Shown here: positions 3,495 to 42,876 of the stretch, in pieces
Layout of the letters: every line of letters starts with the position of its first letter
How positions within the stretch are numbered: the first letter of the stretch is position 1
NCBI GenBank assembly: GCA_009778875.1
Contig: WRFI01000002.1
Coordinates: 1 to 46,382 of the forward strand
Reading direction: 5' to 3'
DNA: 46,382 nt
From: Propionibacteriaceae bacterium
Lineage (GTDB): Bacteria > Actinomycetota > Actinomycetes > Propionibacteriales > Propionibacteriaceae
Made by a program: the position numbers and the translations under genes
Notes under the pieces: model-generated
What the model saw: the letters and a program-made list of their open reading frames with translations, nothing else
Database searches by the model: none
What the model was told of the DNA's origin: nothing

Positions 3495-3968
3495 TCACAG
3501 GGTCGGCGCGTCCGGCTTCCCGCCGTGGGCTGAGGTGAAGCCGACCGGCTGGGTTGGTCCGACCGGTCGGGTCGGCCCCACCGGTTCGAGGATGCCGGAG
3601 CGCGGATGGAGCCGGTGGAGCATCAAGTCGAACGAGAGGCTGGCGGCGTCGGGACCGACCCTGTCGGCGGTGAAAACAGGCCGTTCCTCGACTTGCCCGG
3701 TGTCAGCGTTGAGGACGTCTTCGACGCCCATGCGCCCGGCGGCGACAAACTGGTCGCCGACGCGAAGCCGCGACAGGGCCGCGACGGCTGAGCGGCGCAC
3801 GATCATGTGGCACAGGTCGGGTTTCAGTGCGACAACGTCACCGTCACTAGTGCGCCCAACCCTGGATTGGCCGACAGTGACATCGGCGCGAATGTGGTCG
3901 CCCTCAGGTGTTTGGACGGGCTTGTCGGCGATGAAACCCGACAGCGCCTGGGACGTCTTGATGGTCAC
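3495..3968 (-). CDS. ssb: Single-stranded DNA-binding-like protein, paralogue 1
   Basis: This 157-aa protein begins with the same IKTSQALSGFIADKPV pattern as the SSB just downstream and retains a GDQFVAAGRMGVEDV strand segment typical of the OB fold. It differs in the middle (ALKPDLCHMIVRRSAVAAL) and ends in a Pro/Gly/Val tail with short repeats of the type PVGPT. The GTG start at 3968 overlaps the coupling-protein stop as GTGA. Two diverged SSBs side by side in a transfer operon suggest different substrates or partners. That is an inference. Confidence 0.65.
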   Translation of the reverse strand: MTIKTSQALSGFIADKPVQTPEGDHIRADVTVGQSRVGRTSDGDVVALKPDLCHMIVRRSAVAALSRLRVGDQFVAAGRMGVEDVLNADTGQVEERPVFTADRVGPDAASLSFDLMLHRLHPRSGILEPVGPTRPVGPTQPVGFTSAHGGKPDAPTL

Positions 3969-5749
3969 GACGCCGCCTCACCGCCGGTTTGCAGACGGGC
4001 CTCCAGCGCCTTGCGGTTGGCCTGTAACTGGGCGGCGTCAGGGCGTGACGGCCAGGCCCGCAGGTCGGTGATGATTGGTCGGGTGGTGCGCAGCAGGGTG
4101 ACGCCGACCCCGAACGGCAGGGTGCGGATCACCTCGGGCGGCATGACCGGCACCCGCCGGATTGACCGTTGCGTCGTGGTGAAGCCCTGCTCGGAGATCG
4201 TGTCCGACGTCGTCGTTTCGTCACGTTCACCGATGAGAGTGGAGATGTCCCGCAGGTCGGTGGGCGAGGATGCTCCGCCGAGGATGATCTTGACGATGGA
4301 GGCGTCCCAGATGGCTCCGGCGGCGTCTTGGCCCCACTTCTGACGCGCCTGCGACAAGGATTGAAGGACGGGCATGGTCGTGATGCCGGTGCCCCCACCC
4401 TCCGCCATCAACGTCGGCAGGGATGGCAGTGGGGCGATGTTGGCGACCTCGTCCAGCGCCAGCAGCAGCGGTGGATCGAGACGAGCACCAGGTGATTTCG
4501 CGGCGAGGCGTCGGGCTGTTTCGACGAGGTCTTCGACGAACGCCGCCACCAGCGGTGCCGAGGCCCCGGCTCCCGCGCCGGTGGCCAGCAGGAACAGCGT
4601 TCCGTGCTGCTGAAGGAAGGTGGTCGGGTCGAAGTCTTCGCCGTCCCTGGGGCTGACGGTGTCGAGGACTCTGGGGTCGGCCAGGGAGGCGAGTGCGAGG
4701 GAGACGCCTTGCCAGATGGAGTCTCTGGTGCGTGGATCGGAGTGGATCATGGCGTCGAGGGCGTCGGCCCAGCCGGTTGCGGCACCGGTGTTGGTTCGCA
4801 GGGTTTGGACGGCGTCGATGGCGGCGTTCGGGTCGAGCGTCCAGCGGAACAGTTCGGCGGAGCTTCTGTCGTCGAGGGCGGCGGCGTGAAGCAGGGATTG
4901 GAGGGCGACTCTGGTTTTGCCTTCCCAGAAGCCGCCGTTCTCGACCCCGCCACCGCCGATGCCGGTCGCTGCCGCCAGGCCGGTGGCACGGATCATTGCC
5001 GTTAATGGATCGGCGCAGCCGCGCACGGGTGACCAGCACAGGCCAGATGGCACGCCTTCGGCGAGGTGTTGGGGGTCGAAGACCGCGACCGGGCCGTGCG
5101 CTTTCCGGGCGGTCATGGTGGCGGTGAGGTTGTCGGGGCGGGTGGAGGTGGTGACGACCGCGCCGGGCGCGTCCAGAATCGCGTTGATCACGATGTGCAG
5201 ACCCTTACCGGAACGCGGCGGGCCGATCAGCAAGATGCTGTCTTCGACTGACGCCCAGACTCCGACGCCGTGGCCGGTGCCGAGCAGGTAGCCGATATCG
5301 GCGGGCTTGGGCTGCTGAATCGACGGGCGCAGCGTTGCGGCGCGTTTCAGGAGGGCTCGGTCGGAGGCCAACATGCGGACTTCGTCGCGGGTGGCGGTTC
5401 CGGCGATGCGGTGTGGGTCGGTGGCCGTCTTCTCCGACGAGCGGCGAACCACGCCCCACAGCCACATGCCTGCCACGGCCAGCCCTGTCAGCGCGACGAC
5501 GGTGACAGCCCAGTAGGCGACCGGGTTGAGACCGTCGGCACCCAGCGCCAAGCCTGGGTCGGTGAGATGGGCCAGTACGCCAAGACCAGCGGCCCACGAC
5601 CCGGCTGGTTGCGGCTGGCCGGTGATCAGACAAGCCAGACTGCCCGCCTCGCGCAGCAGCAGCGCGAGCAGAGCGAGGCCGATCATGGCGGCGATGGCCA
5701 GGTTCAGCATGGAGTCGCGGCCCGCCGGTGCCGGTGTTTGGGGGTTCAC
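3965..5749 (-). CDS. Type IV coupling protein (VirD4/TraG-type ATPase)
   Basis: This protein of about 594 aa should dock the relaxase-DNA complex to the secretion channel. Two hydrophobic segments near residues 16-36 and 82-101 would anchor it in the membrane. They are followed by a Walker A GPPRSGKG near 176-183 and a Walker B LLLALDEVANI near 429-439, then the segment MPVLQSLSQARQKWG typical of VirD4-like proteins. I chose the GTG at 5749 because it overlaps the stop of the upstream gene as GTGA; the frame also offers an ATG at 5710. The overlaps place it in one transcriptional unit with the VirB4-like genes. Confidence 0.9.
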   Translation of the reverse strand: MNPQTPAPAGRDSMLNLAIAAMIGLALLALLLREAGSLACLITGQPQPAGSWAAGLGVLAHLTDPGLALGADGLNPVAYWAVTVVALTGLAVAGMWLWGVVRRSSEKTATDPHRIAGTATRDEVRMLASDRALLKRAATLRPSIQQPKPADIGYLLGTGHGVGVWASVEDSILLIGPPRSGKGLHIVINAILDAPGAVVTTSTRPDNLTATMTARKAHGPVAVFDPQHLAEGVPSGLCWSPVRGCADPLTAMIRATGLAAATGIGGGGVENGGFWEGKTRVALQSLLHAAALDDRSSAELFRWTLDPNAAIDAVQTLRTNTGAATGWADALDAMIHSDPRTRDSIWQGVSLALASLADPRVLDTVSPRDGEDFDPTTFLQQHGTLFLLATGAGAGASAPLVAAFVEDLVETARRLAAKSPGARLDPPLLLALDEVANIAPLPSLPTLMAEGGGTGITTMPVLQSLSQARQKWGQDAAGAIWDASIVKIILGGASSPTDLRDISTLIGERDETTTSDTISEQGFTTTQRSIRRVPVMPPEVIRTLPFGVGVTLLRTTRPIITDLRAWPSRPDAAQLQANRKALEARLQTGGEAAS

Positions 5750-6306
5750 CAACGCTCGATCTGGGGTTGCGGTCGGGCGGTACGACCGGACTCACGCCCG
5801 ATCAGCAGCGTCTCCGACGTGACCCACGAAGGAAGCGTCACCGGGACAGTGCCGTCAACGTTGGCGACAGTCGTGCCGACCACGGCTACTACCGCCACCA
5901 GTTCACCTGGCTTGAAACCGTCGACCATCGGCTGCGCGTCAACTGTGGCTGGAGAGGCCGCGTCCGCCTGGCTGGGATCATTAGTCTCGGTCGGTGGTAG
6001 CGCGTGGCGAGGTCCGGCGTGGATGATCGGTTCGGGCAGTGAACTGGCGGGTGTCACCGGACGCAAGTCGATCACCCCGGACGTCACCGTCCCATCGGTT
6101 TCGGTGATCGACACGGTGAACGGCTGCTCCAGGCGAGACCACAGGTGGTCCATCAACACCCCGAAACTGTCGCGGGTCAACGGCAGCAGATCAGCGGGCG
6201 GTTGGTAGTCGACGCCGAACACCGTCACCGTCATGTGGTCGGGTGGGCTGATCGTGCAGGCGACGATGGGCTGGTCGGGGGTCCACGGCTGGAAGTCTGT
6301 GCTCAT
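5746..6306 (-). CDS. Hypothetical protein of the transfer operon
   Basis: This 186-aa protein has no family I recognise. The first half looks beta-rich (MTVTVFGVDYQPP, FTVSITETDGTVTSGVIDLR). A Pro/Ala/Asp linker follows, then a second beta-like segment (ELVAVVAVVGTTVANVDGTVPVTL). There is no clear signal peptide or convincing membrane helix. It lies between the VirB4-type ATPase (stop at 6328) and the coupling protein, whose start it overlaps. This suggests an accessory role in transfer. The ribosome-binding site before the ATG at 6306 is weak. Confidence 0.6.
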   Translation of the reverse strand: MSTDFQPWTPDQPIVACTISPPDHMTVTVFGVDYQPPADLLPLTRDSFGVLMDHLWSRLEQPFTVSITETDGTVTSGVIDLRPVTPASSLPEPIIHAGPRHALPPTETNDPSQADAASPATVDAQPMVDGFKPGELVAVVAVVGTTVANVDGTVPVTLPSWVTSETLLIGRESGRTARPQPQIERW

Positions 6307-19193: not shown

Positions 19194-19638
19194 GCGTCCA
19201 TTCTCCCAGCCCGCTCGGCCAACCGGGTGCTGCCATCCTGAACCAGGCGTCCGTCACAGGGTTGCGTCCTGCCTGGTCAGCGCCATGACACGGATCAGAT
19301 CATCGCGGGGAGAGTGATTCTTGGTCTGCTCTCCCGTCGCCAGCGAGTTGATCCGCGCACGCAACGCCACTGTTCGAAGTGACGCAATGAACGACGACAT
19401 CGTCAGGAGGCTCTGACGCCCACCATGACGCGCGCCTCGTCAGAGTCGACCATCGCATCCAGAGTCACGGCACTCAGTCAGATCAGCCTCGCAGTCCTCG
19501 TCTGTATCTGCCTCGGCAACTGCTCTCAGACCCCCGCGTGCCGCTTTCCGTCTTCCGAGCCGCTGCCGCGCCTCATCTGGACCACACGTCTGGCAACAGA
19601 GGGTCGCGCCGCTCACCTTGCTCCCGGAAGGGAGTGTC
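19194..19638. other. oriT: Gene-free region before the relaxase with inverted repeats; candidate oriT
   Basis: These 445 bases lie between the divergent AraC and relaxase genes, the usual place for a MobF origin of transfer. Two inverted repeats stand out. ACCAGGC (19242-19248) pairs with GCCTGGT (19271-19277) across 22 bases. GGGAGAG (19308-19314) pairs with CTCTCCC (19329-19335) across 14 bases. I cannot see a nic consensus. A plus-strand frame from 19425 has a hydrophobic stretch but overlaps the relaxase in another frame and is not convincing. The promoters of both genes should also lie here. Confidence 0.4.
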
Positions 19639-22600
19639 GTGACGGTTTCGATGCGGCTGATGAACGCCGGGGACGGCGTCAAGTATTTCTTCGAGTCGGT
19701 CGCCGCAGGCGACGGCGACCGGGATCTGTCGACGCCGCTGACGCGGTATTACACGGAGGCCGGTTGCCCGCCGGGTGAGTGGGTCGGGTCGGGTGTCGCG
19801 TCATTGGGCGGGCAGGTGAGTGTCGGCGACACGGCGGGTGAGCGTCAGCTTCAGATGCTGATCGGTGAGGGCCGTCACCCGACGACCGGCCAACTGCTCG
19901 GCGAGCCGTACCGCCGCTTCGCGTCAGTGGCTGAGCGTGTCGACCAGCGTGCCAAGGCGCTCAGCCCAGCCCTCACCGAGGCTGAGCGTGTTGCGGCGTT
20001 GGCGGAGATTGAGCGTGACGAGTCTGAGCGCGGTACTCGGCGGGCGGTCGCCGGGTTCGACTACACGTTCTCCGTGCCGAAGTCCGTCAGCGTGTTGTGG
20101 GGTGTGGCCGACGGCGGCACGCAGGCGTTGATCGCGCAGGCGCATCATGACGCGGTCGCCGACGTGCTCGGCTTCATGGAACGCGAGGTCGTAGCCACCC
20201 GGACGGGCTCTGGCGGGCGCAACGGCGCGGTCGTCCAATCTGACGTGACCGGCGTGGTGGCCACCTCGTTCGATCACTACGACTCGAGGGCTGGTGACCC
20301 GCAGTTGCACACCCATGTGGTGATCGCCAACCGGGTCTGCGCTCTCAAGGACGGCAAGTGGCGCACCATCGATTCCCGTCCGATGCACGCCGTGGTCGTC
20401 ACCTTGTCGGAGTATTACAACGCGCTGCTGGCCGACCGGCTGACCAGGGTGCTGGGTGTCGGCTGGGATGCTCGTGAGCGGGGCCGGGACCGGAATCCGG
20501 CCTGGGAGATCACCGGCGTCGGGGCTGATCTGATCGGCGAGTTCTCCTCCCGTTCCCATGACATCGACGCTGAGAAGGACCGCCTGGTCGCCGCCTACAC
20601 CACCGCACATGGCCGACGCCCGTCCTCGCGGATGATCATCAAGTTGCGCCAGCAGGCGACATTGGCGACCCGGCCCGCCAAGCAGATGCACTCGCTGGCC
20701 GAGCTGACCGACTTGTGGCGGCAGCGTGCCACCGGAATATTGGGCGAAGACGCAACCGGCTGGGCGTGGCGGGTGATCTCAGAATCCGACGCCATCGTCA
20801 TCCGTGCCGACAACATCCCGTTGGACATGATGGACGCTCTGGCCGCGTCGGTTCTGCAAGCGGTGGGTGAGAAACGCTCGACGTGGCGGCGGTGGAACCT
20901 GCACGCCGAGGCTTCGCGGCAGACGATGGGCTGGCGGTTCGCCACGACCGAAGACCGGGAGGCGTTGACCGGCCAGATCTGTGATGCCGCCGAAGCCCAA
21001 TCGCTGCGGCTGACCCCAGACGCGATGACCGCGCCAGACGAGTTCCTGCGCCTAGACGGCACCTCCAGGTTCCGGCCTCGGCATATGACCGTCTACTCCT
21101 CCCAAGACCTGTGGGACGCCGAAACCCGGCTGGCCGGGCTAGCCGAGACGTTCACTGCACCCGTGGTCGGCTTCGCCACCATTGACCGGATCGTCAACCA
21201 GCCGGATCGTCAGGGGCGGACGCTCGGCCAAGACCAGGCCGAGGCGCTGACAAGGATCGCAACCTCGGGACGCGTGGTGGACGTGCTGGTCGGCCCGGCG
21301 GGCGCGGGCAAGACCACCGCTCTCGGGTCGCTGCGGACAGCCTGGGAGACCGAGCACGGTGCCGGGTCGGTGGTTGGCCTTGCCCCCTCGGCAACCGCCG
21401 CCGCCGTGCTGGGCGAAGACTTGGGCATCGGCACGGAGAACACAGCCAGATGGCTCGCCCTCCACGACCACACCGGGCTGGAGTTCCAGCCCGGCCAGTT
21501 GGTGATCGTCGACGAAGCCTCCCTGGCGGGCACCTTCACCCTGGACCGGCTCGCCGCCCTGGCCAACCAGGCTGGAGCGAAAGTGCTGCTGGTGGGTGAC
21601 TGGGCGCAACTGCAGGCCGTCGACGCCGGAGGCGCGTTCACCATGCTCGTCGCCAACCGGGCCGACCCACCCGAACTGTCGGACATCCACCGCTTCACCA
21701 ACGTCTGGGAGAAGACCGCTTCCCTCGGGCTGCGACATGCCGACCTGGCAGCCATCGACCAGTACGAGACGCACGGCAGGCTCGTCGCAGACGATCTCGA
21801 CCAGGTCACGGCCCAGGCGTATGAGGCATGGCGCGACGACACCAGCCGAGGTGTCGCCTCGCTGCTTGTCGCCGATGCCCTGACCACGGTGCAGGAGCTG
21901 AACCGGCAGGCTCGCCACGACCGCATCCTGGCCGGTCTGGTCGCCCCCGACCACGAGATCACCCTGGGTGACGGCAGCCGCGCTTCCGCCGGGGATGTCG
22001 TCATCACCCGCCTCAACAACCGCCACCTGCAAGCCGGACGCACCGGCTGGGTCCGCAACGGCGACCGCTGGACCATCATCAAGACCCACGTCGACGGATC
22101 GATCACCGTCCGCCGCGCCGGACACACCCGAGGCGGCACCGTCACCCTGCCAGCCGACTACGCCGCCGAACACTTGGACCTCGGTTACGCGGTCACCGCG
22201 CACAGGGCGCAGGGCGTGACGGTCGACACCTGCCACGTCCTGGTCACACCGACGACGACCAGGGAGAACCTGTACGTCGCCATGACCAGAGGCCGCGACT
22301 CGAACCTCGCCTACGTGGCTACCGACCGGCCCGACGACTCCCACGATCAGCCGCACCCGTCCGACAATCCCGAGGCGACCGCCCGGTCGGTGTTGGCCGG
22401 AGTGTTGTCCAACTCGGGCGCGGAGTTGTCTGCCCATCAGATGCGGCAGGCTGAGGCGGAGCAGTGGGGCAACACGGCCCAACTCCGGGCCGAGATCGAA
22501 ACGCTGATCTCAGCCGCGCAGCAAGGCCGCTGGGCGGCGCTCGTCGGCGCGTGTGGCCTAGACACCACCCAGGCCGAAGCAGTGCTCGCATCGGAGGCGT

Positions 22601-23169
22601 TCGGCCCGCTGTGCGCGGAACTACGCCGCGCAGAAGCCAACGGCCTTGATCCGGAACAGGCACTGCCGCGCCTGGTTGCCGTCCGCAGCCTCGTCGGCGC
22701 AGTCGACATCGCCTCCGTTCTGCACGGACGCCTGGCCAGGTACATTGACACCGCGACTACCGACCGTCGGGTCCGCACCGCACCTCGGTACACGCTCGGT
22801 CTAGTCCCACAGACCACCGACCGGCTCGATCCGGTGATGGACCACGCGGTGCGAGAACGTGTCCAAGCCATGCGGCGGCGGGCAGAGGATCTGCTGCGTC
22901 AGGGCACCGACCGAGATGAGCCGTGGGTTGCGGCGCTGGGGCCAAGACCGACCGACGCGCGCGAAGCGCGACATTGGGATGAGACGGCGCTCGCTGCCGC
23001 CGCCTACCGGGATGCTTGGGGCGTGGTCGACCCGACGCCATTAGGGAACCCGTCAAGTCTCAAGCAGCGTCAGGACGCGGCACGAATCGCCCCGGCACTC
23101 AACCGCCAGTCGCACGCCACAGCCAGACCAACCCCGCAAGCCGCACCGGACACCTCGCCGCATTTGTGA
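19639..23169 (+). CDS. MobF-family conjugative relaxase-helicase (TrwC/TraA-like)
   Basis: This 1176-aa protein should nick oriT, stay bound to the 5' end and unwind the strand. The relaxase domain includes the catalytic tyrosine pair RYYTE (Tyr37/Tyr38) and the histidine triad in FDHYDSRAGDPQLHTH (His213, His224, His226). The helicase part has Walker A GPAGAGKT near 552-559 and Walker B VIVDEAS near 622-628. A TTTRENLYVAMTRGR motif typical of TraI-like helicases comes further on. The C-terminal 300 residues are helical. I chose the GTG at 19639, giving TVSMRLMNAGDG, the common start of this family, with GAAGGGAG upstream. It lies convergent to no other transfer gene and has its own promoter region. 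Confidence 0.93.
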   Translation: MTVSMRLMNAGDGVKYFFESVAAGDGDRDLSTPLTRYYTEAGCPPGEWVGSGVASLGGQVSVGDTAGERQLQMLIGEGRHPTTGQLLGEPYRRFASVAERVDQRAKALSPALTEAERVAALAEIERDESERGTRRAVAGFDYTFSVPKSVSVLWGVADGGTQALIAQAHHDAVADVLGFMEREVVATRTGSGGRNGAVVQSDVTGVVATSFDHYDSRAGDPQLHTHVVIANRVCALKDGKWRTIDSRPMHAVVVTLSEYYNALLADRLTRVLGVGWDARERGRDRNPAWEITGVGADLIGEFSSRSHDIDAEKDRLVAAYTTAHGRRPSSRMIIKLRQQATLATRPAKQMHSLAELTDLWRQRATGILGEDATGWAWRVISESDAIVIRADNIPLDMMDALAASVLQAVGEKRSTWRRWNLHAEASRQTMGWRFATTEDREALTGQICDAAEAQSLRLTPDAMTAPDEFLRLDGTSRFRPRHMTVYSSQDLWDAETRLAGLAETFTAPVVGFATIDRIVNQPDRQGRTLGQDQAEALTRIATSGRVVDVLVGPAGAGKTTALGSLRTAWETEHGAGSVVGLAPSATAAAVLGEDLGIGTENTARWLALHDHTGLEFQPGQLVIVDEASLAGTFTLDRLAALANQAGAKVLLVGDWAQLQAVDAGGAFTMLVANRADPPELSDIHRFTNVWEKTASLGLRHADLAAIDQYETHGRLVADDLDQVTAQAYEAWRDDTSRGVASLLVADALTTVQELNRQARHDRILAGLVAPDHEITLGDGSRASAGDVVITRLNNRHLQAGRTGWVRNGDRWTIIKTHVDGSITVRRAGHTRGGTVTLPADYAAEHLDLGYAVTAHRAQGVTVDTCHVLVTPTTTRENLYVAMTRGRDSNLAYVATDRPDDSHDQPHPSDNPEATARSVLAGVLSNSGAELSAHQMRQAEAEQWGNTAQLRAEIETLISAAQQGRWAALVGACGLDTTQAEAVLASEAFGPLCAELRRAEANGLDPEQALPRLVAVRSLVGAVDIASVLHGRLARYIDTATTDRRVRTAPRYTLGLVPQTTDRLDPVMDHAVRERVQAMRRRAEDLLRQGTDRDEPWVAALGPRPTDAREARHWDETALAAAAYRDAWGVVDPTPLGNPSSLKQRQDAARIAPALNRQSHATARPTPQAAPDTSPHL

Positions 23170-27924: not shown

Positions 27925-27951
27925 GGGGCTTGTTTTCGGAAAGAAGCCACC

Positions 27952-28953
27952 ATGGACACCACCACCAACCCGCAGCAGTCGTGTTGCGGCACCTCAGCCA
28001 CCGCACAGCAGTCATGCTGCGGCACGTCACAAGCCCCGACGCAGCCGGAGCACGCCAAGGCGTTGGACGTCGACTACCTGTATCTGGACTTGACCACCTG
28101 CACTCGCTGCCAGGCCACCGATTCGGCGACGAAAGAAGCCCTGTCAATGCTGGCGGACACCTTCGAGACCCTCGGCTACGAGGCCCGGCTGAACGAGGTC
28201 AACATCACGTCACGGGAACTCGCCGAGCAGTACCGCTTCGTGTCGTCCCCGACGATCCGGGTCAACGGCGTCGACATCGAAACGACGCTGAAAGAATCTG
28301 ACTGCGCCGACTGCGGCAGCCTGTCCGGCTGCTCCACCGACTGCCGGGTGTTCACCTACAACGGTCAGGACTACGAGCAGCCGCCCGCCGCGATGATCGT
28401 CGACGGCATCCTGCGCGTCCTTTACGGCGGCAAGCAGCCCGACACCACCCCCTATGTCCTCCCCACCAACCTGGAGCAGTTCTTCTCCGGCGTCGAAACC
28501 AAACAAGCAAAAGGAACCACAATGTCAACCATCCACGTCTACGAACCAGCCATGTGCTGCAACACCGGGGTGTGCGGCCCCGACCCGGCTCAAGAACTCG
28601 TCCAGTTCACCTCCGACCTCGCAGCCCTGAAGGGCCTCGGCGCGGACATCACCCGGCACAACCTGACCAACGACGCGCTGGCGTTCACGCAAGCCGAGCC
28701 GGTACGGGCGTTCATGCAGGCGGCGGGGTCGGCGGGTCTGCCGTTGACCACGGTCGACGGGGCGGTTGTGTTGACGGGCCGTTACCCGTCGCGTGACGAG
28801 CTGACCCGTTACGCCGGTCTGGCGGATGCGTCGACCGCTGAGACGGGGTGCTGTGGCGGACAGGCCGACGCGGCGGAATCGTCGTGCTGCCAGCCAGCCC
28901 CGGCGGCGGCTGCTTCGTCCGGTTGTGGCTGCGGCTCGTCCGGCTGCTGCTGA
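27952..28953 (+). CDS. arsD: DUF2703-ArsD in-frame fusion (arsenic metallochaperone)
   Basis: This 333-aa protein joins two usually separate arsenic proteins. Residues 1-30 hold two QQSCCGTS repeats. Residues 37-180 are DUF2703-like with a CxxC (Cys50, Cys53) and a Cys cluster (SDCADCGSLSGCSTDC). From Met191 the sequence is ArsD. Cys202, Cys203 and Cys208 correspond to ArsD Cys12, Cys13 and Cys18, the As(III) site that hands arsenite to ArsA. The C-terminus adds GCCGG, SSCC and SSGCC motifs. No stop separates the halves, yet AAAAGGA lies just before the internal ATG at 28522. Free ArsD may therefore also be made. Confidence 0.88.
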   Translation: MDTTTNPQQSCCGTSATAQQSCCGTSQAPTQPEHAKALDVDYLYLDLTTCTRCQATDSATKEALSMLADTFETLGYEARLNEVNITSRELAEQYRFVSSPTIRVNGVDIETTLKESDCADCGSLSGCSTDCRVFTYNGQDYEQPPAAMIVDGILRVLYGGKQPDTTPYVLPTNLEQFFSGVETKQAKGTTMSTIHVYEPAMCCNTGVCGPDPAQELVQFTSDLAALKGLGADITRHNLTNDALAFTQAEPVRAFMQAAGSAGLPLTTVDGAVVLTGRYPSRDELTRYAGLADASTAETGCCGGQADAAESSCCQPAPAAAASSGCGCGSSGCC

Positions 28954-28973
28954 GAGTGCATGAGGAAGAGATC

Positions 28974-32749: not shown

Positions 32750-35700
32750 TCATTCTTCGGTGGATGAACGACGCCGCTTGACGGCCCACATAGTGGCAAC
32801 TCCTGCACCGATGAGGGCCAGCCCGACTGCGGCCAACCCGATCACGTTCCCTGCACCGGTGCTCGCCAGAACGGTGCCACCGGTCTCAGCGGCAGGACCG
32901 GGCTGGTGCCAGCGGGTGACCTCGTTGGTCTGCCCGAACCAGCCGTGTGCGATGACCTCCTGGTCGCCGCCGGTGGCAGGGGTGAGGACGATCTCTTTGA
33001 TGTTGGTGCAGCCGGTCTGGTCGGAGGTGAACTCGGGCGAGTAGATCGTCTCGGTGGCACCGTCGAGGATGTCGTGGTCGAGGATGATCTCGCCGACCTT
33101 GACGGCTCCGGTCATGTCCTCGGGATCGGCCTTGACGCACTGCAGCTTGTCCTGCGGCATGGACGGGTCGACGTAGTCGGTGTGCTGGACCCACCACTGG
33201 ATGACGGTGCCCTTGGCATACGGGCCGGTCAACAGGGCCTTGTCGGTGATCTTCGCCCCAACGTTCGCGTCCGATGGTGCCTGGGTGGCGATCTTCGGCG
33301 CGGGCGGTGCTGGTGGTGCGGGCACGATGGCTGATTCTGCGATGGTTCCGCACAGGCCGCGATGGATCACCGTCGGCTGGCTGCCGGAGGTGTCGGTGAT
33401 CGTCTCCACCAGGAACAGCGAGCCGGGTTGGTCCGGAGCGGTGAAGCTAGGCGAAGCGAACGTCCCCGGCTGCTCCACAGCGACCGGCTGGCCTGACTGC
33501 CAGTAGAGGGTGTCTGGGGTGCAGACCGCGTTGGAGTAGACCTTCGCCCCGGACGCATCGGTGACGATCTCAGCCGGATGCGAGTCGGCGGTGGCGGGGG
33601 TGAAGTACGCCTGCCACGACGCCTCGAGTTCGGTCATAGGTGCAGGCCGCGCGGTGTCGCCGGGGTACCAGGCGTGCAGCACATCAACCAAGTCGCCGCC
33701 CGGCTGGACGGTGATGCCGGTCTCTTGCGTTTGGGCCGTGTCGACGGTCGAGGTGTCGGCGTCGGCGGGGGCGACCAGTTGGGTGATGAAGTCGGGTTTG
33801 GCGGTGACGATGCTGATCGTCTCCGACTTCTCCCCGCACACCGACCGGTACGGTTCGGTGCGGGCGTCGCCAGGCCAGGACACGACGAACGTGTACGTCG
33901 CATCCGAGCCGGACGCTTTGAATTTGGAGCCGGAGACTTTCTGGGAGGCGGCCCAGGTGTTGATCGCCGGAGTCGCACTGTTGCTGGCGACCAGCGTCGC
34001 GTTCGGATTGTCCGCCGTGCAGGAGTCGGGTGTCACCGAGCCTTGGATGCGCCACAGGTTGACGGTGACGGTCTTCCCGTCGCCGTCCCAGGGTCCGTAG
34101 CCTGCCCAGTTGGCGTGTCCGATTGCGCCGTACATGTCCGTGTCGGTTGGGTTGTCGGGCCAGTCGATCTGCCAGATGTCGTCTTGGAAGAACGTCTCGG
34201 TGACTCCGTTGTTGGTGGTGTCCCAGGTGGTGGCGGCGGTGCGGATCACCGGCGTCCGCTTGACCATGGTGGTTTCGACCGGAAGCCACAACGGCGTCGT
34301 CACCTTGTTGGTCAGGTAATCCTTCGTCGCGGCGGGCTGCTGGACAGGGTCAATCGTGTACTGGAATCCGTACGCCCCGTAGTCGCCGTAGCCGACCTGA
34401 TGGCAGACGGTTTGGGCGTGGTCCTTCCCGGATGCGGTGAACGTCAACGTGTACTGGTCGACGGCGGGTACGTCTCCGGTGGGGATGGTTTGTGCTCCGG
34501 GAACCGCCGAGTGGTAGACGGCCCCGTCGACGCTGACTTCGACGGGTTTGTCCGTGCCCCACTGGTTGAGCCATAGATCGGTCGGGCTGGTGGGTTCGAC
34601 CCACACCGCGTCACAGACCTGCGCGGTCGCCTTGCCGGTCGGTTCGGTGATCGTCTCATCGGTGACCTGGGACTGGACGGTCAGGTCCATTTGGGTGACG
34701 TGCGTCTCCAACTGCTGGCCGAACTTGTCCGCTACCGAGGCAGCGATCAACGGTTTCACGGCATCACTCTGGTGATCGACGTCGACGCGCCACACCCACA
34801 CGCCGTACTGGCTGGTGGGCACGGTGAACCCGGCAGGCGCTGCCACGGTGACCGGATCGCGCCCCGAGGTGGGCAGCGTCACGTTGACGCTTGCGGTGCC
34901 GAGCGCCTTGGCGTCGGCGGGCACCGTGTCGGAGACGACGAAGCTGGAGGCTGATCCGGCGTAGTAGGTGCCGTCGACGGTCACCACCGCTGGTTTGCCG
35001 TCGGTGGTGGATATCCACTGGTCGGCGGAGTCGGGCAGGGTGAGGGTGATCGTGTCGTCGGGAGCCTGGCCTTTCGCCCGGTACTGGTCCGGCAGACTGG
35101 AGGCCACATTGATGCGCATCGGCATGGTGAACCGCTCGTCGGTGGCGAACCACTGGTCGCAGGTGGGTCCGCCTTTCGGCAGGTACTTCGCGTTCGCGCC
35201 CTGGTAGGCGGGGTCGAGGCACCAGCGGATCGAGTAGTGGCCGGAGCCGGGATCGGCGGGCAGCGGCACATCCGACGTCGAGTAGACGCCCGGCCCTGAC
35301 AGCGTCACGAGGGTCGGGTCGCCCGGCAGGACGGTGGCCCCGGCGGGCAGTGATGCCGACGGTGCGGGCGGCATGGTGGATTTGGCGATCTGCCCGGAGG
35401 CTACGAGGGGGAAGTAGGTCTTCGGTTGGGTTTGGATCGCATCCGCCCAGACGGAGACCGGCCACTGTGTGCCGTTGATCGCGTCAGCCTTCACCTTGTC
35501 CGACACGCTCTTCGCGCCCGGCGCGACAACCGTCGACCCGATCTGGGTGGTGACCTGCGGGGTCCACTTCGTTTCGGTCGCCTTCCCGGTGCCGGAGCCG
35601 GTGACCGACGTCGTCAAGCCGGTGGCGACGCGCTGCTGGTCGTTGCCGGAGTCGTGCAGCAGATAGCACGACTGCGGCACGTCACCGATGCTGATCGTTA

Positions 35701-36436
35701 CCGTGACCTGCTCGTCGGCTATCAAGGCATGGCGCGGCACCAAAGCCACCGACTTGGCGGCGGTGCCCGTCGTCACGGTCACCGTCTGGCTGCCGCCTGC
35801 GAAGGTGGCGTTGGGTGTGGTGATCGTCAGCGTGGCGGTGAACCCGTCCGCGAAGTGCGCCGTCGTCCGGTCCGTCTCGCCCGGACGCACCAGGCCGTAC
35901 CAGACGGTCAGATTATCGGCGTCGACCTGCACCAGTGCGTCGTGGGGACCGCCGTTGCGTTTCGCCTCCGCGACCAGGTTGCTGTAGACATCCGGATGGG
36001 AGACGGGGATGTTGTCGTGGTATTGGGTCCGGGAGAACTGCGAGACGGAGGCGGCGATCTGGGTGTCGGTGGTGTGGTCGTAACGGGCGATCAGGTACGC
36101 CATTTGGGCGACGATGTCCGGGGTGCCCGAGGCGTCGGTTGTCCCGCAGATCTTGGTGGCGTCGGCGTCGTCCAGGTTGTCGGGGGCGGGAATGCCGGGG
36201 TCGACGCAGAACCCGTACCTGCCGCCGATCTCGATGTTGCCCCAGTGGGTGGACATGCCGTTCCAGGTGCCCGGCTCATAGGTCGGATAGGTCGCGGTCG
36301 CCGCCTGCGCCGGAGCTGTCACGGCGAGCAGGCTGCCCAGTCCGACGGCCAGGGCGGTGAGCATGCGGACGGCCTTGTGCCGCCAGCGATCGGGTGCGGC
36401 CCCATGCGGGGGCGGACCAGATACGGATCGTTTCAT
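32750..36436 (-). CDS. LPXTG-type cell-wall-anchored surface protein, possible thioester adhesin
   Basis: This 1228-aa exported protein has a signal peptide ending near residue 45 (VTAPAQA). The C-terminus has a sortase motif LASTG, a hydrophobic helix (VIGLAAVGLALIGAGVATMW) and the basic tail KRRRSSTEE. The body is a series of beta-rich, Thr/Val/Asp-rich segments with scattered cysteines. Near the N-terminus, RYGFCVDPG (Cys77) followed by TDTQIAASV (Gln126) resembles the Cys...Gln pair of thioester adhesin domains; this is suggestive only. On an ICE it may mediate mating-pair or surface attachment. No sortase gene is in the window, so a host sortase is needed. I chose the ATG at 36436, directly before the charged signal-peptide region. 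Confidence 0.85.
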   Translation of the reverse strand: MKRSVSGPPPHGAAPDRWRHKAVRMLTALAVGLGSLLAVTAPAQAATATYPTYEPGTWNGMSTHWGNIEIGGRYGFCVDPGIPAPDNLDDADATKICGTTDASGTPDIVAQMAYLIARYDHTTDTQIAASVSQFSRTQYHDNIPVSHPDVYSNLVAEAKRNGGPHDALVQVDADNLTVWYGLVRPGETDRTTAHFADGFTATLTITTPNATFAGGSQTVTVTTGTAAKSVALVPRHALIADEQVTVTISIGDVPQSCYLLHDSGNDQQRVATGLTTSVTGSGTGKATETKWTPQVTTQIGSTVVAPGAKSVSDKVKADAINGTQWPVSVWADAIQTQPKTYFPLVASGQIAKSTMPPAPSASLPAGATVLPGDPTLVTLSGPGVYSTSDVPLPADPGSGHYSIRWCLDPAYQGANAKYLPKGGPTCDQWFATDERFTMPMRINVASSLPDQYRAKGQAPDDTITLTLPDSADQWISTTDGKPAVVTVDGTYYAGSASSFVVSDTVPADAKALGTASVNVTLPTSGRDPVTVAAPAGFTVPTSQYGVWVWRVDVDHQSDAVKPLIAASVADKFGQQLETHVTQMDLTVQSQVTDETITEPTGKATAQVCDAVWVEPTSPTDLWLNQWGTDKPVEVSVDGAVYHSAVPGAQTIPTGDVPAVDQYTLTFTASGKDHAQTVCHQVGYGDYGAYGFQYTIDPVQQPAATKDYLTNKVTTPLWLPVETTMVKRTPVIRTAATTWDTTNNGVTETFFQDDIWQIDWPDNPTDTDMYGAIGHANWAGYGPWDGDGKTVTVNLWRIQGSVTPDSCTADNPNATLVASNSATPAINTWAASQKVSGSKFKASGSDATYTFVVSWPGDARTEPYRSVCGEKSETISIVTAKPDFITQLVAPADADTSTVDTAQTQETGITVQPGGDLVDVLHAWYPGDTARPAPMTELEASWQAYFTPATADSHPAEIVTDASGAKVYSNAVCTPDTLYWQSGQPVAVEQPGTFASPSFTAPDQPGSLFLVETITDTSGSQPTVIHRGLCGTIAESAIVPAPPAPPAPKIATQAPSDANVGAKITDKALLTGPYAKGTVIQWWVQHTDYVDPSMPQDKLQCVKADPEDMTGAVKVGEIILDHDILDGATETIYSPEFTSDQTGCTNIKEIVLTPATGGDQEVIAHGWFGQTNEVTRWHQPGPAAETGGTVLASTGAGNVIGLAAVGLALIGAGVATMWAVKRRRSSTEE

Positions 36437-36530: not shown

Positions 36531-37598
36531 TCACAGACCGGCGGCAGCACGCGCGGCAGTAGCGGCGTCCATGAACTCGTCGACCCCGATCCGGTAGGCC
36601 AGCGCCAACTCCCAAGCCGCCGGTTCGGCGAAAGGTCCGAACACCTGCGGGTTGCCGCGCTGCCAGTAGCCGTGTTCGCGGCGGATCAGATCGCCCAACA
36701 GACGGGCTTCCCGTTTCTCGGCGGCATGCGCATCGACCGGTTTCGCGGGTGGCGGTGGCGCGTCGGCTCGGAGCCGATCCAGCTCGGCCAGGGCCTGCTT
36801 GCCGTGGCGTATCGCTTCGACCGGATCGTCAAGGCCACGGATGTCGGCGGCGGCCTGCGCAGCGGCGGACCGCACGTCGGCAGGCTCGGCGGGGTTGATG
36901 GCGGCCCGGTCGAGGGCGGTCATCTGCTGGTTGAGTTTGACACGCTGCCAGCGCGGGTTGACCTTCCCGTCGGCGTTCAACTCGACGAGGGCCTCGACGG
37001 CGTCCTGCTGCACCGACGGGTGCTGCCGGTCGTCGGTGGCGATGGCCTGCAGTTCGCGGATTTGGTCGAGGCGAGTCTGCGAGGAACTGCCGGTGACGGC
37101 TTGGGCGGCGTGCCGTTTCGCCTTGCCCTTGTGACTGGTCGCCGCCTCTGGCGAGTCTGATCCGGACGCACCGGCATCGACTTCCTCGTCGGTCTTGACG
37201 GCGGCGGTGTTACCGGGCTGGAATCGAGTGGCTTCCTGGCGGAGGCGGGCCTGCTGCGCGTAGAGCTGCTCGTACTCGCCGTACAGGTTGGCCTGCTCTA
37301 TCGGGGTCAGCGACTTGCGGAGGTTCTCGTCATCGAACAAAGCGACCATCCGCAACGTCGGCGACACCTTGTCCGGCACCCAGCACGACACAGTCGTCCA
37401 GCCGAGTTTCTTCGCCGCCGCGAGACGTCGTTTGCCGCAGATCAGATCGCCATCGGTGGTGACGACTATCGGCGTCAGGAGACCGAGCCGGTCGAGGGAA
37501 TCGGCTAGGGCGTCGAGGTCGCCGAGGTCGCGCCGGTAGACGCCCTTCTGGTTGATGTCGGCGATGGGATAGTCGGGTTGCAGGTGGCCGTCAGCCAT
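36531..37598 (-). CDS. ParB-like protein, copy 2
   Basis: This 355-aa protein is a paralogue of the one at 13937-15025. The N-terminal ParB-like domain reads RRDLGDLDALADSLDRLGLL, then ICGKRRLAAAKKLGW and the helix LTPIEQANLYGEY. A helical middle contains the repeat-like segment HPSVQQDAVEALVELNADGKV, matching AIRQQAVDALKQIEDGAAV in copy 1. The C-terminus carries a WELALAYRIGVDEFMDAATAA helix. No ParA is present. The Shine-Dalgarno sequence GGAAGGAG before the ATG at 37598 is buried in a perfect 9-bp hairpin, suggesting translational control. Confidence 0.8.
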   Translation of the reverse strand: MADGHLQPDYPIADINQKGVYRRDLGDLDALADSLDRLGLLTPIVVTTDGDLICGKRRLAAAKKLGWTTVSCWVPDKVSPTLRMVALFDDENLRKSLTPIEQANLYGEYEQLYAQQARLRQEATRFQPGNTAAVKTDEEVDAGASGSDSPEAATSHKGKAKRHAAQAVTGSSSQTRLDQIRELQAIATDDRQHPSVQQDAVEALVELNADGKVNPRWQRVKLNQQMTALDRAAINPAEPADVRSAAAQAAADIRGLDDPVEAIRHGKQALAELDRLRADAPPPPAKPVDAHAAEKREARLLGDLIRREHGYWQRGNPQVFGPFAEPAAWELALAYRIGVDEFMDAATAARAAAGL

Positions 37599-37661: not shown

Positions 37662-37697
37662 CTGCGGGGCCACACCCTGGTCGGCGTGGCCCCGCAG
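37662..37697 (-). terminator. 12-bp perfect hairpin after the six-repeat gene
   Basis: CTGCGGGGCCAC (37662-37673) and GTGGCCCCGCAG (37686-37697) pair perfectly with a 12-base loop. The hairpin starts ten bases after the stop of the six-repeat protein (37707) on the minus strand. It is followed by the RBS-masking hairpin of ParB-2. The two may work together as terminator plus translational gate. Confidence 0.65.
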
Positions 37698-37706
37698 AAG
37701 CTCAGG

Positions 37707-40700
37707 TCACAGGCTCATGCCCGGTGGTGTGCCGCCGACCGGCGGAGACATGGGGAAATCGGTCTGCAATCGGCTGGCCCGGTTGACAGTGAAGCCAACG
37801 GTGACGGTCACGTCTGGGCGGACAGCCTGTTGGACCGCTTGGTCGTGCAGATGTGGGACATCGTCGAGCAGGTTGATGGTCGCCTGGTTGAGGGGGTAAG
37901 CCCCAGACGCGCCGGAGCAGCCGGACACCGGTGACCTGCCGACGATCAGCTTCAACTGGCCGGAGTCGTCGACCCAGGTGGCGTCATACACACCGGCAGG
38001 CAAGTGCTGGTAGGCGGTGGTCGCATATCCGGAGTACAACAGGTCGCCCTCGCCGTCGGGGTTGGGCACCCGGATCGGGGCTGAACCAGCCCTGATCGTC
38101 TGATACACGCGCATCCGGTCGGCGGCGCTCAAGGTCTTCTCGGCCAGGCTCGGACTTCCGCCAGGGCCAGGTGTGATCAGCTCATACAGCATGCCGACCC
38201 GCCTGCTTGCCGCCTCGACCATCGGATCGGCAGCGCCACCCGCCGCCGGTTGATTGGGGCTGGTGGTGCCGACGAGCCTGGTAAGTGTCTGCTCCGTGTC
38301 GAGAGCAGTCCGGCGGAAGTCGTGCTCCCAACGCAGCCGGTCTTCGCGGTACTGGCCGTCGTCAATCTGCCCCAGATAGTCAGGACGGGCAATCTGGTAG
38401 TCGCCGGGGCGCGGCTCACGGGGTAGCGGATGGTCGGCCAGATGGCTGGCTATCCGGTCACGTAGGGACTCCAGCCGCTCCAGCCGTTGGCGTAGTTCGG
38501 GCAGGTGGGCGGCGTCGTTAGCCAGGTCCAGGCACTGCTCCATCCAGTCCTCGACGGCCTCACCCCACCGGTCGCCGAGGACTGTGCCGTCGGCATCCAG
38601 GTGGTCTTCGACTCGCGGCAGGTGCGGGAACGCGGCGATGAGCCTGTCGGGGATGCCGCCGTCGTTGAGCACTTCCCAGTCGCCTGCCCGCTCGGTCTCG
38701 ATGGTCACGGTTCCCGGTGTTGTGACCGGGGCGGGCTGCGGTGTCGGCGGTTGGGGTGTGGCGGGTTCGACGATGCCGAGGACGGCCTGGTTGATGGCCT
38801 CGCCCATGGCCTGGGTGAGCCGAGGGGTGGGCACATGCTCATGAATCGTCAACACGGGCTTGCCGTCAGGGCCGACCACGTCGGCCAGCCACGCGGTGAT
38901 ACCGGCAGCGTCCAGTCCAGTCGGGTTGGGAACGTCGGCGGCGTCGAACGCCGGGGATTGCAGGTCTTCCCACATCCGCATCGCCGCGTCATGCTCCATC
39001 TGTGTTCGCGTGCCGCCGACCATGGTCTCCATCTCCGACGGGTCATCACCCCAGCGGATCACCCCCACCACCATCTCCTCACCCAACAGCAATGCCTCGC
39101 CGGTCGACATCGCCTGGGGTGCGGTGACCGGTTCCGGCGTCTCGGCCAACCGGACCCACACCTGCGGTGCGGCAGCAGGCGGCTCGGCACCTTCCGGCAG
39201 GGGCGGCAGGTTTTGGGTCTTGGCCGGGTCGTACACCTGGCGCACGAACACTGCCGGGTCGTTGAACTGCTGCCGGTAGGCGTCCAGCCACCGTTCCATG
39301 CTGTCGTAGTTGTCCAGATCAACGGGATGGGTGGCCAGGAACTCGGCGCGTTGCTCGGCCATGTGCCCGGAGAAGTCGTCGGGGTTGATCGCATCGGCAA
39401 GGATGCGGACGGCGGCTTGGGCGACGGTGTCGTAATCTCCGACCCATACCTGCGGGTCTTCCTCACGCAAATCCTCGGACTCGACCACTGCAGCCCACAA
39501 GTCATCGACCCGCACGGTCATGGGTGTTGGTGGCTGGGTTGGCGGGACGGGTGCGGCCACCGGAGATGGTTGCACCGCCACCGGCGTGGAGGTGTCGGTG
39601 GGTGGCGTGGTTGTCAAGTCTGGGGGAAGGATGACTTGGTCGGTGCCGACGACGGGGTAGCCGATCTCGCGCTGGTAGTCGTTGATCCAGTTCTCCATCG
39701 ACCCCAGGTCGCTGCCGGGGTGGTGGTGTTCGGCCAGGAATCCTTCCGCGCCTTGCAGTGGCGGCTGCGCGGACAGCTTGCTGGCCAGATGGTCGACGAT
39801 CTGCTGGTGCAGCCCGATCAGGTCGGTGTCGGCGATCAGGCGGGAGTCGAACGGGTTTGTCTCAGTCAAACAGGCGACATGCGCCATCTCGGGTTTCTGC
39901 CCGGCTGGAATGGTTAGGTCGACTTGCTGGTAGTTGAACGCGGGTCCGGGCGACTCCGCGTAGAAGGCGTCGAGATAGTTGGATACGTCGCCGGGTGTCG
40001 CCCAGTCTCTGGGGCGGGTGTGGTCTTCGACGAAGTCGCGGAACCGCCGGTCCTGCTGGTTATCGGCCAACTCCCGATACAGCAAGGACGCCAGATCATG
40101 CTCCAACTGTTCCCGACTGGACGCCGCAAGGTACTCGTCGGGCTCCAGAGCGCCGCGCGGGTCCCAGAACACCGCCCCCAGCCACACCGCCGCCTCCACC
40201 GGAGCAATCGACGGTGCGCTCGCCGCAGGAGCATCAGGGCCGACAGCGTCCAGGTCGGCGAGTGCCGGGTCGGCGTGCAGCACCGTCTGGTGGATGGAAA
40301 AACCAATCTGCGTCAGTTCGGTGCTGGCACGGTCAAGCCACCGGGTCACCTGCGCCGGATCGTCCAAGTCGGGCCGGAACCCCTCACCCTGGCCGAGGTC
40401 GCGCTGGCCGTCATCGATGTAAGAAAGGAGTTGCTGGGCGACGCGGCGTTCCACATCGGCCTGGTCGAACCCGGCGAACATCGCCGTGTTGCCGATGAGA
40501 TCGTCGGAGAACGAGATGACGCCGACGGTCAGGTCACGGTCTTGGCCGGGCCGGGCGTCGTCGCGCAGCACCGGGGTGTCGTACAGGGTTTGCGGGCGTG
40601 ACACCTCCATGTTGACCGCTTCCAGCCAATGCACGACGTCTTGGAGTTCGCGCCACCGGGAAGGGCTGGGATGGTTCGCTAGGAACTGCGCCCACTCCGT

Positions 40701-40877
40701 GTTACCGCCCCCGTCGCGGGTCATGGTCTCCCAGATGCGGGTCGCCGCCCGGTAGTCGGCCCGGTCGCCGTCACGGTCGGCGATCACCTCCGGGCGCATC
40801 CCCAACTCGGGATGCCAGAAGATCACCTGCACCGGCACCCGATGGGTGGTGCCCGGCTTGTCGTTCGAGTCAGCCAT
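37707..40877 (-). CDS. Large acidic protein with six degenerate repeats, family unknown
   Basis: This 1056-aa soluble protein has no signal peptide or membrane helix, and I do not recognise the family. Residues 17-103, 117-200, 233-325, 333-418, 462-550 and 602-685 are diverged copies of one module of about 85-93 residues. Each starts with a hydrophobic strand and acidic turn (VQVIFWHPE, VGVISFSDD, LGAVFWDPR, VGVIRWGDD). An amphipathic helix follows, then in several copies an F(L/V)..H.. element (FLANHP, FVEDHT, FLAEHH, FLATHP). A helix with W(L/I)(D/N/E) (HWLEAV, RWLDRA, NWINDY, RWLDAY) and a closing strand (IHQTVL, VRQVYD) complete it. Modules 4-5 and 6 onward are separated by Pro/Thr linkers. 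The C-terminal 330 residues are helical. The repeats are rich in Asp/Glu. AAGGA precedes the ATG at 40877. Confidence 0.8.
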   Translation of the reverse strand: MADSNDKPGTTHRVPVQVIFWHPELGMRPEVIADRDGDRADYRAATRIWETMTRDGGGNTEWAQFLANHPSPSRWRELQDVVHWLEAVNMEVSRPQTLYDTPVLRDDARPGQDRDLTVGVISFSDDLIGNTAMFAGFDQADVERRVAQQLLSYIDDGQRDLGQGEGFRPDLDDPAQVTRWLDRASTELTQIGFSIHQTVLHADPALADLDAVGPDAPAASAPSIAPVEAAVWLGAVFWDPRGALEPDEYLAASSREQLEHDLASLLYRELADNQQDRRFRDFVEDHTRPRDWATPGDVSNYLDAFYAESPGPAFNYQQVDLTIPAGQKPEMAHVACLTETNPFDSRLIADTDLIGLHQQIVDHLASKLSAQPPLQGAEGFLAEHHHPGSDLGSMENWINDYQREIGYPVVGTDQVILPPDLTTTPPTDTSTPVAVQPSPVAAPVPPTQPPTPMTVRVDDLWAAVVESEDLREEDPQVWVGDYDTVAQAAVRILADAINPDDFSGHMAEQRAEFLATHPVDLDNYDSMERWLDAYRQQFNDPAVFVRQVYDPAKTQNLPPLPEGAEPPAAAPQVWVRLAETPEPVTAPQAMSTGEALLLGEEMVVGVIRWGDDPSEMETMVGGTRTQMEHDAAMRMWEDLQSPAFDAADVPNPTGLDAAGITAWLADVVGPDGKPVLTIHEHVPTPRLTQAMGEAINQAVLGIVEPATPQPPTPQPAPVTTPGTVTIETERAGDWEVLNDGGIPDRLIAAFPHLPRVEDHLDADGTVLGDRWGEAVEDWMEQCLDLANDAAHLPELRQRLERLESLRDRIASHLADHPLPREPRPGDYQIARPDYLGQIDDGQYREDRLRWEHDFRRTALDTEQTLTRLVGTTSPNQPAAGGAADPMVEAASRRVGMLYELITPGPGGSPSLAEKTLSAADRMRVYQTIRAGSAPIRVPNPDGEGDLLYSGYATTAYQHLPAGVYDATWVDDSGQLKLIVGRSPVSGCSGASGAYPLNQATINLLDDVPHLHDQAVQQAVRPDVTVTVGFTVNRASRLQTDFPMSPPVGGTPPGMSL

Positions 40878-41043: not shown

Positions 41044-42093
41044 CTATTGCCGAACTCGGTCCAGGCGCGAGGAAATGAGCGGCAGGTAGTCGGGGTCTTT
41101 CTCCACCGCGATCACCCGGAAGCCGTCGAGTAGGGCGGCCTGGATCGTGGAGCCTGACCCGGCGAACGGCTCCAGCACGACACCGCCGACCGGGGTGAGC
41201 AGGTTGACCAGCCAGCGCATCAGCGACAACGGCTTGACTGTCGCATGCGCCATCCCGAACGCCCGAGGTCGCTGTGACGGCGAGGCTTTGGCGTCGTAGC
41301 GGAACACGGGGAACTTGCCGGACACCCCACCTGGCAGGCTCCCTGTCGCCTGATCCAAGCTCTCGGCCTGCCCGTCGTCGAGAGCGACGTTGACCGGCCA
41401 GCGCCCGTCGCCGAACCTGGCGGTGTCGATGTTCAGCCCGCCGACGCCGTGAGCCAGAACGTTGCCGACCAACGTCCCGTCTGGTGGTTTGTGGGCGATC
41501 AAGATCGGCTCGAAACCCGGACGCAGCCCCGTGCCCCAACCGGCCATCGCCTTCGCCTGCTCGGTGACCGGTTGGCCGGAGTTGAGCACCTTTCTGGTCC
41601 TGCCCAGCAGCCAGTCATGGTCGGAGACCTCGACAACACGGTCTGTGCGGCTAGCGCCGAGGTGGGCGTCGATGGCGTGGGAGATGTCCATCGACTTCGG
41701 CATCCCAGTGGAGTACAGCCACGCGATCTGGTCGCGGATCTCGAACCCGGCGGACTCGACGCCCCGCACCAGCCGATGCCACGTGCGGGTGCCGCCGAAC
41801 GCCGCCAGATGCCCGCCCGGCTTCAGAACGTGCAGTGCGCCGACCGCCCAGGCCCGACACCACGCTTCGAACACCTCCGCATCCGAGAAGCCCGACGTAT
41901 CGACGTTCGTCAGGGACTCGCGGAACCCGGCAGCGCCGTCCCAGGTCTGGTCGCAGAACCGCAACCCATACGGTGGATCGGTCACTATCGAATCGACCGA
42001 CTCCGGGTCGAGAATCGGCAAGATGGCGACGGTGTCACCCAGGTACACGGTGACCGTGTCGGTCTGGATTGCGGGCAGCAGTGGTTCGGGCAT
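41044..42093 (-). CDS. Orphan DNA methyltransferase (beta-class, N4-cytosine or N6-adenine)
   Basis: This 349-aa enzyme has the amino-methyltransferase motif IVTDPPYG (Asp39-Tyr42) near its N-terminus and the AdoMet-binding VLEPFAGSGST (near residues 307-316) near its C-terminus. This is the beta-class order. A WHRLVRGVESAGFEIRDQIAW segment and a HATVKPLSLMRWLV motif support this. No restriction endonuclease gene is adjacent, so it probably protects the element from host restriction or acts as a regulator. The ATG at 42093 follows GAAAGG and is divergent from the SRAP gene. The 166 bases between its stop and the six-repeat gene contain no ORF. Confidence 0.92.
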   Translation of the reverse strand: MPEPLLPAIQTDTVTVYLGDTVAILPILDPESVDSIVTDPPYGLRFCDQTWDGAAGFRESLTNVDTSGFSDAEVFEAWCRAWAVGALHVLKPGGHLAAFGGTRTWHRLVRGVESAGFEIRDQIAWLYSTGMPKSMDISHAIDAHLGASRTDRVVEVSDHDWLLGRTRKVLNSGQPVTEQAKAMAGWGTGLRPGFEPILIAHKPPDGTLVGNVLAHGVGGLNIDTARFGDGRWPVNVALDDGQAESLDQATGSLPGGVSGKFPVFRYDAKASPSQRPRAFGMAHATVKPLSLMRWLVNLLTPVGGVVLEPFAGSGSTIQAALLDGFRVIAVEKDPDYLPLISSRLDRVRQ

Positions 42094-42204
42094 GGTGATG
42101 GCCTTTCACGAAAAGGTGGGAATGCCACCCAGGTGCGGTTCGGTCGCCATTCACGCAGCAATGCGCCGACGCCACCCCGGCGCTCCTGCGGCAGACTTGA
42201 TGCC

Positions 42205-42876
42205 ATGTGCGGCAGGTTCGCCACCTCAAGCGAGGACGACATCGTCGATGCTTTCGACATTCACGTCGTCACCACGCACATCGACCCGTCGTGGGACGTC
42301 CGCCCGACCCAGCAGATCGGGGTCATCGTCGAAGACGTGGCCGCCGCCCGGCGCGACGACCGCGACGTCGTCCGGGAACTCAGATCGGCCAGGTGGGGCT
42401 TGGTGCCGTCGTGGAGCAAGGCGCTCGACAAGAAGGTGCTGCTCATCAACGCCCGATCCGAAACCGTCTTGTCGAAACCGTCATTCCGGGTGGCGGCACG
42501 CCAGCGGCGGGCGATCATCCCCGCCAGCGGTTACTACGAATGGGCGCGCAACCCTGACGGCACCAAGACACCGTTCTTCCTCTGTGATCCCGACCAGCCG
42601 TGCCTCGGATTCGCCGGGCTGTACGAGTGGTGGAAGGTTCCCGACGGCCTCCAGGTGACAGGTGCCGACGAGGGCTGGCTCTGCTCAGCGACGATCATCA
42701 CCAAACCCGCCACCGATAGCCTCGGCCACATCCACGACCGCATGCCCGTCGTCGTCCCGCACGCAATGGCCGACGCCTGGCTCGACCCCGACCTGACCGA
42801 CCCTGACCAGGTCGACGCCCTGCTGCACTCCATCCCAGACCCGGCCCTCGTGCCGACCGAACGAACGCCGGGCTAG
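42205..42876 (+). CDS. SRAP-domain protein (YedK/HMCES-like)
   Basis: This 223-aa protein belongs to the family that crosslinks to abasic sites in single-stranded DNA. Cys2 becomes N-terminal after Met removal. Asn82 in INARSE, Glu112 in GYYEW and His177 in HIHDRMP correspond to the other catalytic residues; WGLVPSW is also a hallmark. On a conjugative element it could shield abasic sites in incoming single-stranded DNA. It is divergent from the methyltransferase, with 111 bases between them for two promoters. The encoded start is ATG-TGC at 42205, which fits the strict need for Cys2. Confidence 0.93.
   Translation: MCGRFATSSEDDIVDAFDIHVVTTHIDPSWDVRPTQQIGVIVEDVAAARRDDRDVVRELRSARWGLVPSWSKALDKKVLLINARSETVLSKPSFRVAARQRRAIIPASGYYEWARNPDGTKTPFFLCDPDQPCLGFAGLYEWWKVPDGLQVTGADEGWLCSATIITKPATDSLGHIHDRMPVVVPHAMADAWLDPDLTDPDQVDALLHSIPDPALVPTERTPG

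Follow-up and report, generated by a model that had tools for sequence, protein, structure and literature searches.

A multi-module protein of actinobacterial conjugative elements and its DNA methyltransferase neighbour

The window considered here, meaning the whole stretch of DNA that was analysed, comprises 46,382 nt of contig WRFI01000002.1 (assembly GCA_009778875.1) from a Propionibacteriaceae bacterium. On its reverse strand lies an ORF of 1056 codons with an ATG at 40877, and this ORF is a genuine gene: the ATG is preceded by a Shine-Dalgarno-like GGAAGGA, GC content by codon position is 0.71/0.47/0.81, and homologues of the protein are read in the same frame. The parts of the gene are listed below; bit scores are those of each module against a profile built from the other five, and shuffles are the number of shuffled sequences (of 5000 per module) that scored as high.

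37707..40877, (-), multi-module protein, whole gene (ORF, Shine-Dalgarno-like site, same-frame homologues)
40560..40847, (-), module 1, residues 11-106 (31.5 bits, 0/5000 shuffles)
40269..40538, (-), module 2, residues 114-203 (19.3 bits, 0/5000)
39903..40193, (-), module 3, residues 229-325 (23.4 bits, 0/5000)
39618..39890, (-), module 4, residues 330-420 (16.8 bits, 0/5000)
39522..39617, (-), Pro/Thr-rich linker, residues 421-452 (from the sequence)
39225..39521, (-), module 5, residues 453-551, the most acidic (19.6 bits, 0/5000)
38820..39083, (-), module 6, residues 599-686 (19.9 bits, 0/5000)
38253..38696, (-), helical part of the C-terminal region, residues 728-875, unrelated to the modules
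37728..38210, (-), mixed part of the C-terminal region, residues 890-1050
37710..37787, (-), C-terminal tail, ending in GMSL

The original prediction described an acidic protein made of six diverged modules, and the six repeats are real. In the leave-one-out profile comparison the modules, each of about 90 aa, scored 16.8–31.5 bits, and for every one of them no shuffle scored as high. AlphaFold2, given module 1 together with the six-row module alignment, returned a confident model (pLDDT 93.5, pTM 0.85) with the elements E6-10, E20-23, H27-48, H50-58, H68-81 and E86-90, a beta-beta-alpha-alpha-alpha-beta arrangement that agrees with the earlier reading from the letters, in which a strand and a helix are followed by the W(L/I)(D/N/E) helix and a closing strand. 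To the extent that a single prediction from the aligned modules allows a judgement, all six share one fold. The F-x-x-x-H element, reported as occurring in several copies, is present in four of the six modules, as is W[LIV][DNE]. The only invariant or near-invariant columns are one Pro and one Trp, both in the helical part, and there is no polar residue that all modules have in common. Pro-rich linkers are found between modules. The absence of a conserved polar residue and the Pro-rich linkers together suggest binding modules rather than enzymes.

The repeats do not account for the whole protein. Against the module profile the C-terminal third scores at most 3.2 bits, and residues ~728-1056, which the six-module description had overlooked, are by sequence comparison a conserved single-copy unit distinct from the modules. 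The helical part shares 30–34% identity with separate proteins of Aeromicrobium and Cellulomonas, and the mixed part is found also in a 478-aa module protein of Aeromicrobium (E 2.8e-20). Structure prediction for this region was poor (pLDDT 48). Across the relatives described below, module number varies from one to seven, while the C-terminal region is always single, or is a separate gene; as it stands alone in some elements and is joined to modules in others, array and region have been fused or split over time. The extreme C-termini of several family proteins are alike (GMSL, GMSL, GLGL, APSL and APGL; window 37710-37787, L055 7240-10896, L056 8627-11184 and L057 3-995): the G1154 protein ends as the window protein does, and related GL/SL ends occur on both G1064 proteins. 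The latter two share an APLD(V/A)FG...L tail after different preceding domains, and this tail might be a docking or secretion signal.

The surroundings of the gene are those of a mobile element, as had been proposed, with a TrwC-type relaxase and a type IV secretion system (T4SS) coupling protein in the window. The module gene is flanked by a DNA methyltransferase (MTase) and a ParB-like gene, also in line with the earlier reading.

41044..42093, (-), N6/N4 DNA methyltransferase, upstream neighbour (PF01555, E 2.1e-23)
36531..37598, (-), ParB_N-like protein, downstream neighbour (PF02195 narrowly below its cut-off at E 2.1e-5; TIGR00180, E 2.3e-9)
32750..36436, (-), sortase-anchored (LASTG-type) surface protein, last of the conserved block (58.5% identity to G1154, 45–53% to G1064 and G1112; weak sorting-signal matches)
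19618..23169, (+), TrwC-type relaxase (PF08751, E 1.3e-86)
3965..5752, (-), T4SS coupling protein, TraG/VirD4-type (PF12696, E 8e-30; PF02534, E 9e-25)

The element also encodes PrimPol, DUF2637 and M23 peptidase proteins and two ParB-like proteins, the latter a paralogous ParB_N-like pair (13937-15025 and 36531-37598). A search of the window for tRNA genes was negative. Between the relaxase and the surface protein lie genes for an ABC transporter and an ArsA-like ATPase, which are likely to be cargo. Within the same interval, 26962-30731 holds the ArsA-type ATPase (Pfam) and a small protein that is ArsD-like by eye, a probable arsenic-resistance cargo. Between the module gene and the downstream ParB-like gene, at 37662-37697, CTGCGGGGCCAC forms a perfect inverted repeat of 12 bp around a loop of 12 nt. 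It might serve as an attenuator or as a site of ParB type; the window has no second pair of this kind, so a parS array is not established.

No sequence match for the module protein was found in Pfam, NCBIfam, PHROGs, PADLOC or PDB, in keeping with the original description of the module as unrecognised. Foldseek comparison of the module 1 model with PDB likewise gave no clear fold match (best E 1.5), and VIA comparison with PDB gave a best Z of 4.3 (AcrIIA15 and ERH), within the range of common arrangements. In BFVD the best match of the model was an uncharacterised phage protein, A0A6J5RSZ1 (TM 0.71, E 0.012), which as a fold relative is a lead only. The full-length protein had no match when searched against plasmids, phages, viral contigs and genome contigs, and relatives were reached by the module profile only. 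Hits designated L002 (phosphotransferase-like), L003-L006, L009 and L018-L021 were dismissed as chance matches or antisense frames.

The module profile retrieved the 478-aa protein of Aeromicrobium camelliae (order Propionibacteriales; NZ_RQJX01000022, E 2.9e-19), which has one module. A scan of genome contigs, with the pair of methyltransferases as query, gave two loci, both with a module protein, one of them in the Cellulomonas sp. 73-92 MAG (NZ_MKTH01000026; one module). With the widened profile, three further actinobacterial genomes gave matches: G1154 has a frame of 1219 aa that combines seven modules with the C-terminal region, G1064 (three modules) has two module proteins, and G1112 (at least two modules) has a two-module protein located after the end of a C-terminal region. 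Profile-profile comparison of the window modules with those of the relatives gave a probability of 99.6%. Some modules within the G1064 and G1112 arrays are shortened, so a strict scaffold geometry has not been kept. In the host family, G244 retains only a decayed piece of modules 3-4, with 44% identity; apart from this and the window, no convincing module match was seen in host-family genomes (sets of 198 and 127). Plasmid and phage collections held no module match, and searches with the Aeromicrobium, Cellulomonas and G1154 proteins against plasmids, phages and viral sequences were also negative. The module family is rare. Beside the G244 fragment, L015 4041-5744 (-) encodes a repeat protein with CxxC motifs and a C-terminus that by eye is endonuclease-like.

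Gene order in G1154 is that of the window, with MTase, module protein, ParB-like protein and sortase-anchored surface protein on one strand, and a ParB-like gene followed by a surface-protein gene is found in the same order in three relatives. Aeromicrobium and Cellulomonas carry the same module, C-terminal region and MTase subfamily as the window, but with a single module and with the C-terminal region on a separate protein, and PrimPol and DUF2637 genes follow where the window has ParB and surface-protein genes. Their block runs MTase, one-module protein, C-terminal-region protein, PrimPol, DUF2637-like protein, ParB-like protein and M23 peptidase; the ParB-like gene is thus not adjacent to the module gene, and the stretches read contain no surface-protein gene. 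Both have one ParB-like gene only in these stretches, at the position of the window's first. From these comparisons the module protein is a standing part of these actinobacterial elements, with one to seven modules in the same place. Our best explanation makes it a cytoplasmic core component shared by a family of conjugative elements in actinobacteria.

The most constant neighbour is the MTase. A member of the same subfamily (about 60–66% identity) lies upstream of the module gene in all five loci where the contig reaches it, across two orders; the window MTase itself is 61–65% identical to these neighbours of the relatives. The window MTase was not found in 105 other host-family genomes, and the plasmid MTases inspected, at 37–41% identity, have different neighbours. 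The constancy of the pairing, in what is a small sample, suggests a joint task. In one form of this, the module protein would serve the adjacent MTase alone as a regulator or partner subunit, setting where or when methylation occurs. That this subfamily is the strictest linkage seen would suit such a role, but the MTase domain is complete by Pfam and in Cellulomonas a further frame (L023 11196-11804) separates the two genes, and we regard it as improbable.

Another proposal, made at the outset from the acidity of the protein, was DNA mimicry. Acidic modules resembling the backbone of DNA would, in the manner of ArdA and Ocr, block restriction or other enzymes that bind DNA. The protein does have a net charge of -90, a pI of 4.4 and only 0.7% Lys (sequence count), is more acidic than its neighbours, and is encoded on a mobile element next to an MTase. 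Module 5, at -15 net charge per 100 aa, falls inside the range of ArdAs of the same order (-12.5 to -16.4), and Ocr, whose 116 residues include 34 acidic and 6 basic ones (PMC4872106), comes to about -24 per 100 aa from these published counts. The description of the protein as Asp/Glu-rich holds for the whole chain, but the acidity is uneven, with window modules from -4 (module 1) to -15. By sequence counts, modules of the family span -15.2 to +2.1 per 100 aa: module 4 of G1154 stands at -2 and a G1112 module at +2, and the two-module proteins of G1064 and G1112 are nearly neutral (-0.5 and -1.2). Charge is not what the module family has kept. ArdA (PF07275; small sArdA, PMC12548430) is likewise acidic, alpha/beta and borne on mobile elements, and its strand-strand-helix start is similar by eye, but hhalign of the modules against seven ArdAs of the order gave probabilities of only 0.6–1.4%. 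There was no Pfam match to ArdA in the module protein, nor any PF07275 match in the host genome. ArdA and Ocr entries were not among the PDB structure matches listed for the module model, which says nothing against such a fold. With acidity that is not conserved and no profile link to ArdA, the DNA-mimic hypothesis is weakened and very improbable. The alternative also raised originally, that the protein acts as a scaffold when DNA is processed or transferred, would fit better.

The array itself is old. Of 2520 assignments, the collinear one, which pairs modules 1-4 and 6 with modules 1-5 of G1154, was uniquely best. In a tree of the modules, numbers 2, 3 and 6 group with G1154 modules 2, 3 and 5 (support 89/84, 93/89 and 92/91, respectively), and module 1 scores highest with its G1154 counterpart of the same number; the deep nodes are weak, and modules 4 and 5 are without a well-supported G1154 partner. 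Since modules 1, 2, 3 and 6 pair with modules 1, 2, 3 and 5 of G1154, the array is older than the split of the two elements, and its modules have stayed distinct rather than being homogenised. Over the same split the module protein has changed most within the block, with 27–28% identity to G1154, compared with 65% for the MTase, 58% for the surface protein and 45% for the ParB-like protein. Evolution faster than that of its neighbours, as these identities suggest, would also fit an arms-race role.

The main rival to our own reading draws on this: in a polyvalent counter-defence protein, each module position would neutralise a different host defence component while the MTase shields the element from restriction. 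In line with this are the orphan-looking MTase next to the gene in each checkable relative, the low conservation of the module protein, and modules that are individually distinct and retained in order, and such multi-domain proteins have been described in conjugative elements and phages (Iyer et al. 2017, PMC5512222). Like those, the module protein is large, multi-domain and cytoplasmic, belongs to a T4SS element and is encoded near MTase and ParB-like genes; it also combines several different domains in one polypeptide, namely six modules and a distinct C-terminal region, but differs in having repeats of one module. Of the catalogued polyvalent domains (MTase-helicase, ArdA, YodL, DarA, LPD and others), those represented in Pfam gave no match in the protein or its relatives. 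With no match to a defence or counter-defence family in the libraries, no profile link to ArdA, and other possible causes for fast evolution, we consider counter-defence rather unlikely, although it is a rival to be taken seriously.

We tentatively favour, at somewhat below an even chance, a non-enzymatic, multivalent binding protein that acts as scaffold or adaptor and works with the MTase in establishment or maintenance of the element. Under this scaffold or adaptor reading, the small alpha/beta modules of the old array, several positions of which remain recognisable from one element to another, would bind partners. The whole protein, including its one conserved C-terminal region, would act on the element DNA together with the adjacent methyltransferase and ParB-like protein, at the time when the element is established or maintained. 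Speaking against this reading are the shortened modules of the G1064 and G1112 arrays, the distance of the ParB-like gene from the module gene in Aeromicrobium and Cellulomonas, where the stretches read also show no surface-protein gene, and the fast evolution of the module protein.

Actinobacterial conjugative elements encode many unexplained large proteins. Here, a domain family so far uncatalogued has been defined together with its gene block and relatives, and the question of function can be tested with few genes. The pairing with an MTase wherever it could be checked and the ordered array of diverged modules make the protein a promising candidate for an as yet undescribed factor in establishment or counter-defence. 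More speculatively, and with less confidence than we give to counter-defence by itself, the module may represent a domain family that current libraries lack and whose fold may be unsolved. Its arrays would then act as a counter-defence or DNA-establishment machine and move together with an MTase of their own in these elements, each position being aimed at a different partner.

Two further genes of the neighbourhood may be mentioned. At 41449-42876 (+) is a gene for an SRAP (SOS response associated peptidase) protein. Its long frame and the MTase overlap on opposite strands; the part that encodes the SRAP domain proper is upstream of the MTase. The surface protein (32750-36436) is large, has no Pfam family and is 45–58% conserved among these elements, and is perhaps a mating adhesin.
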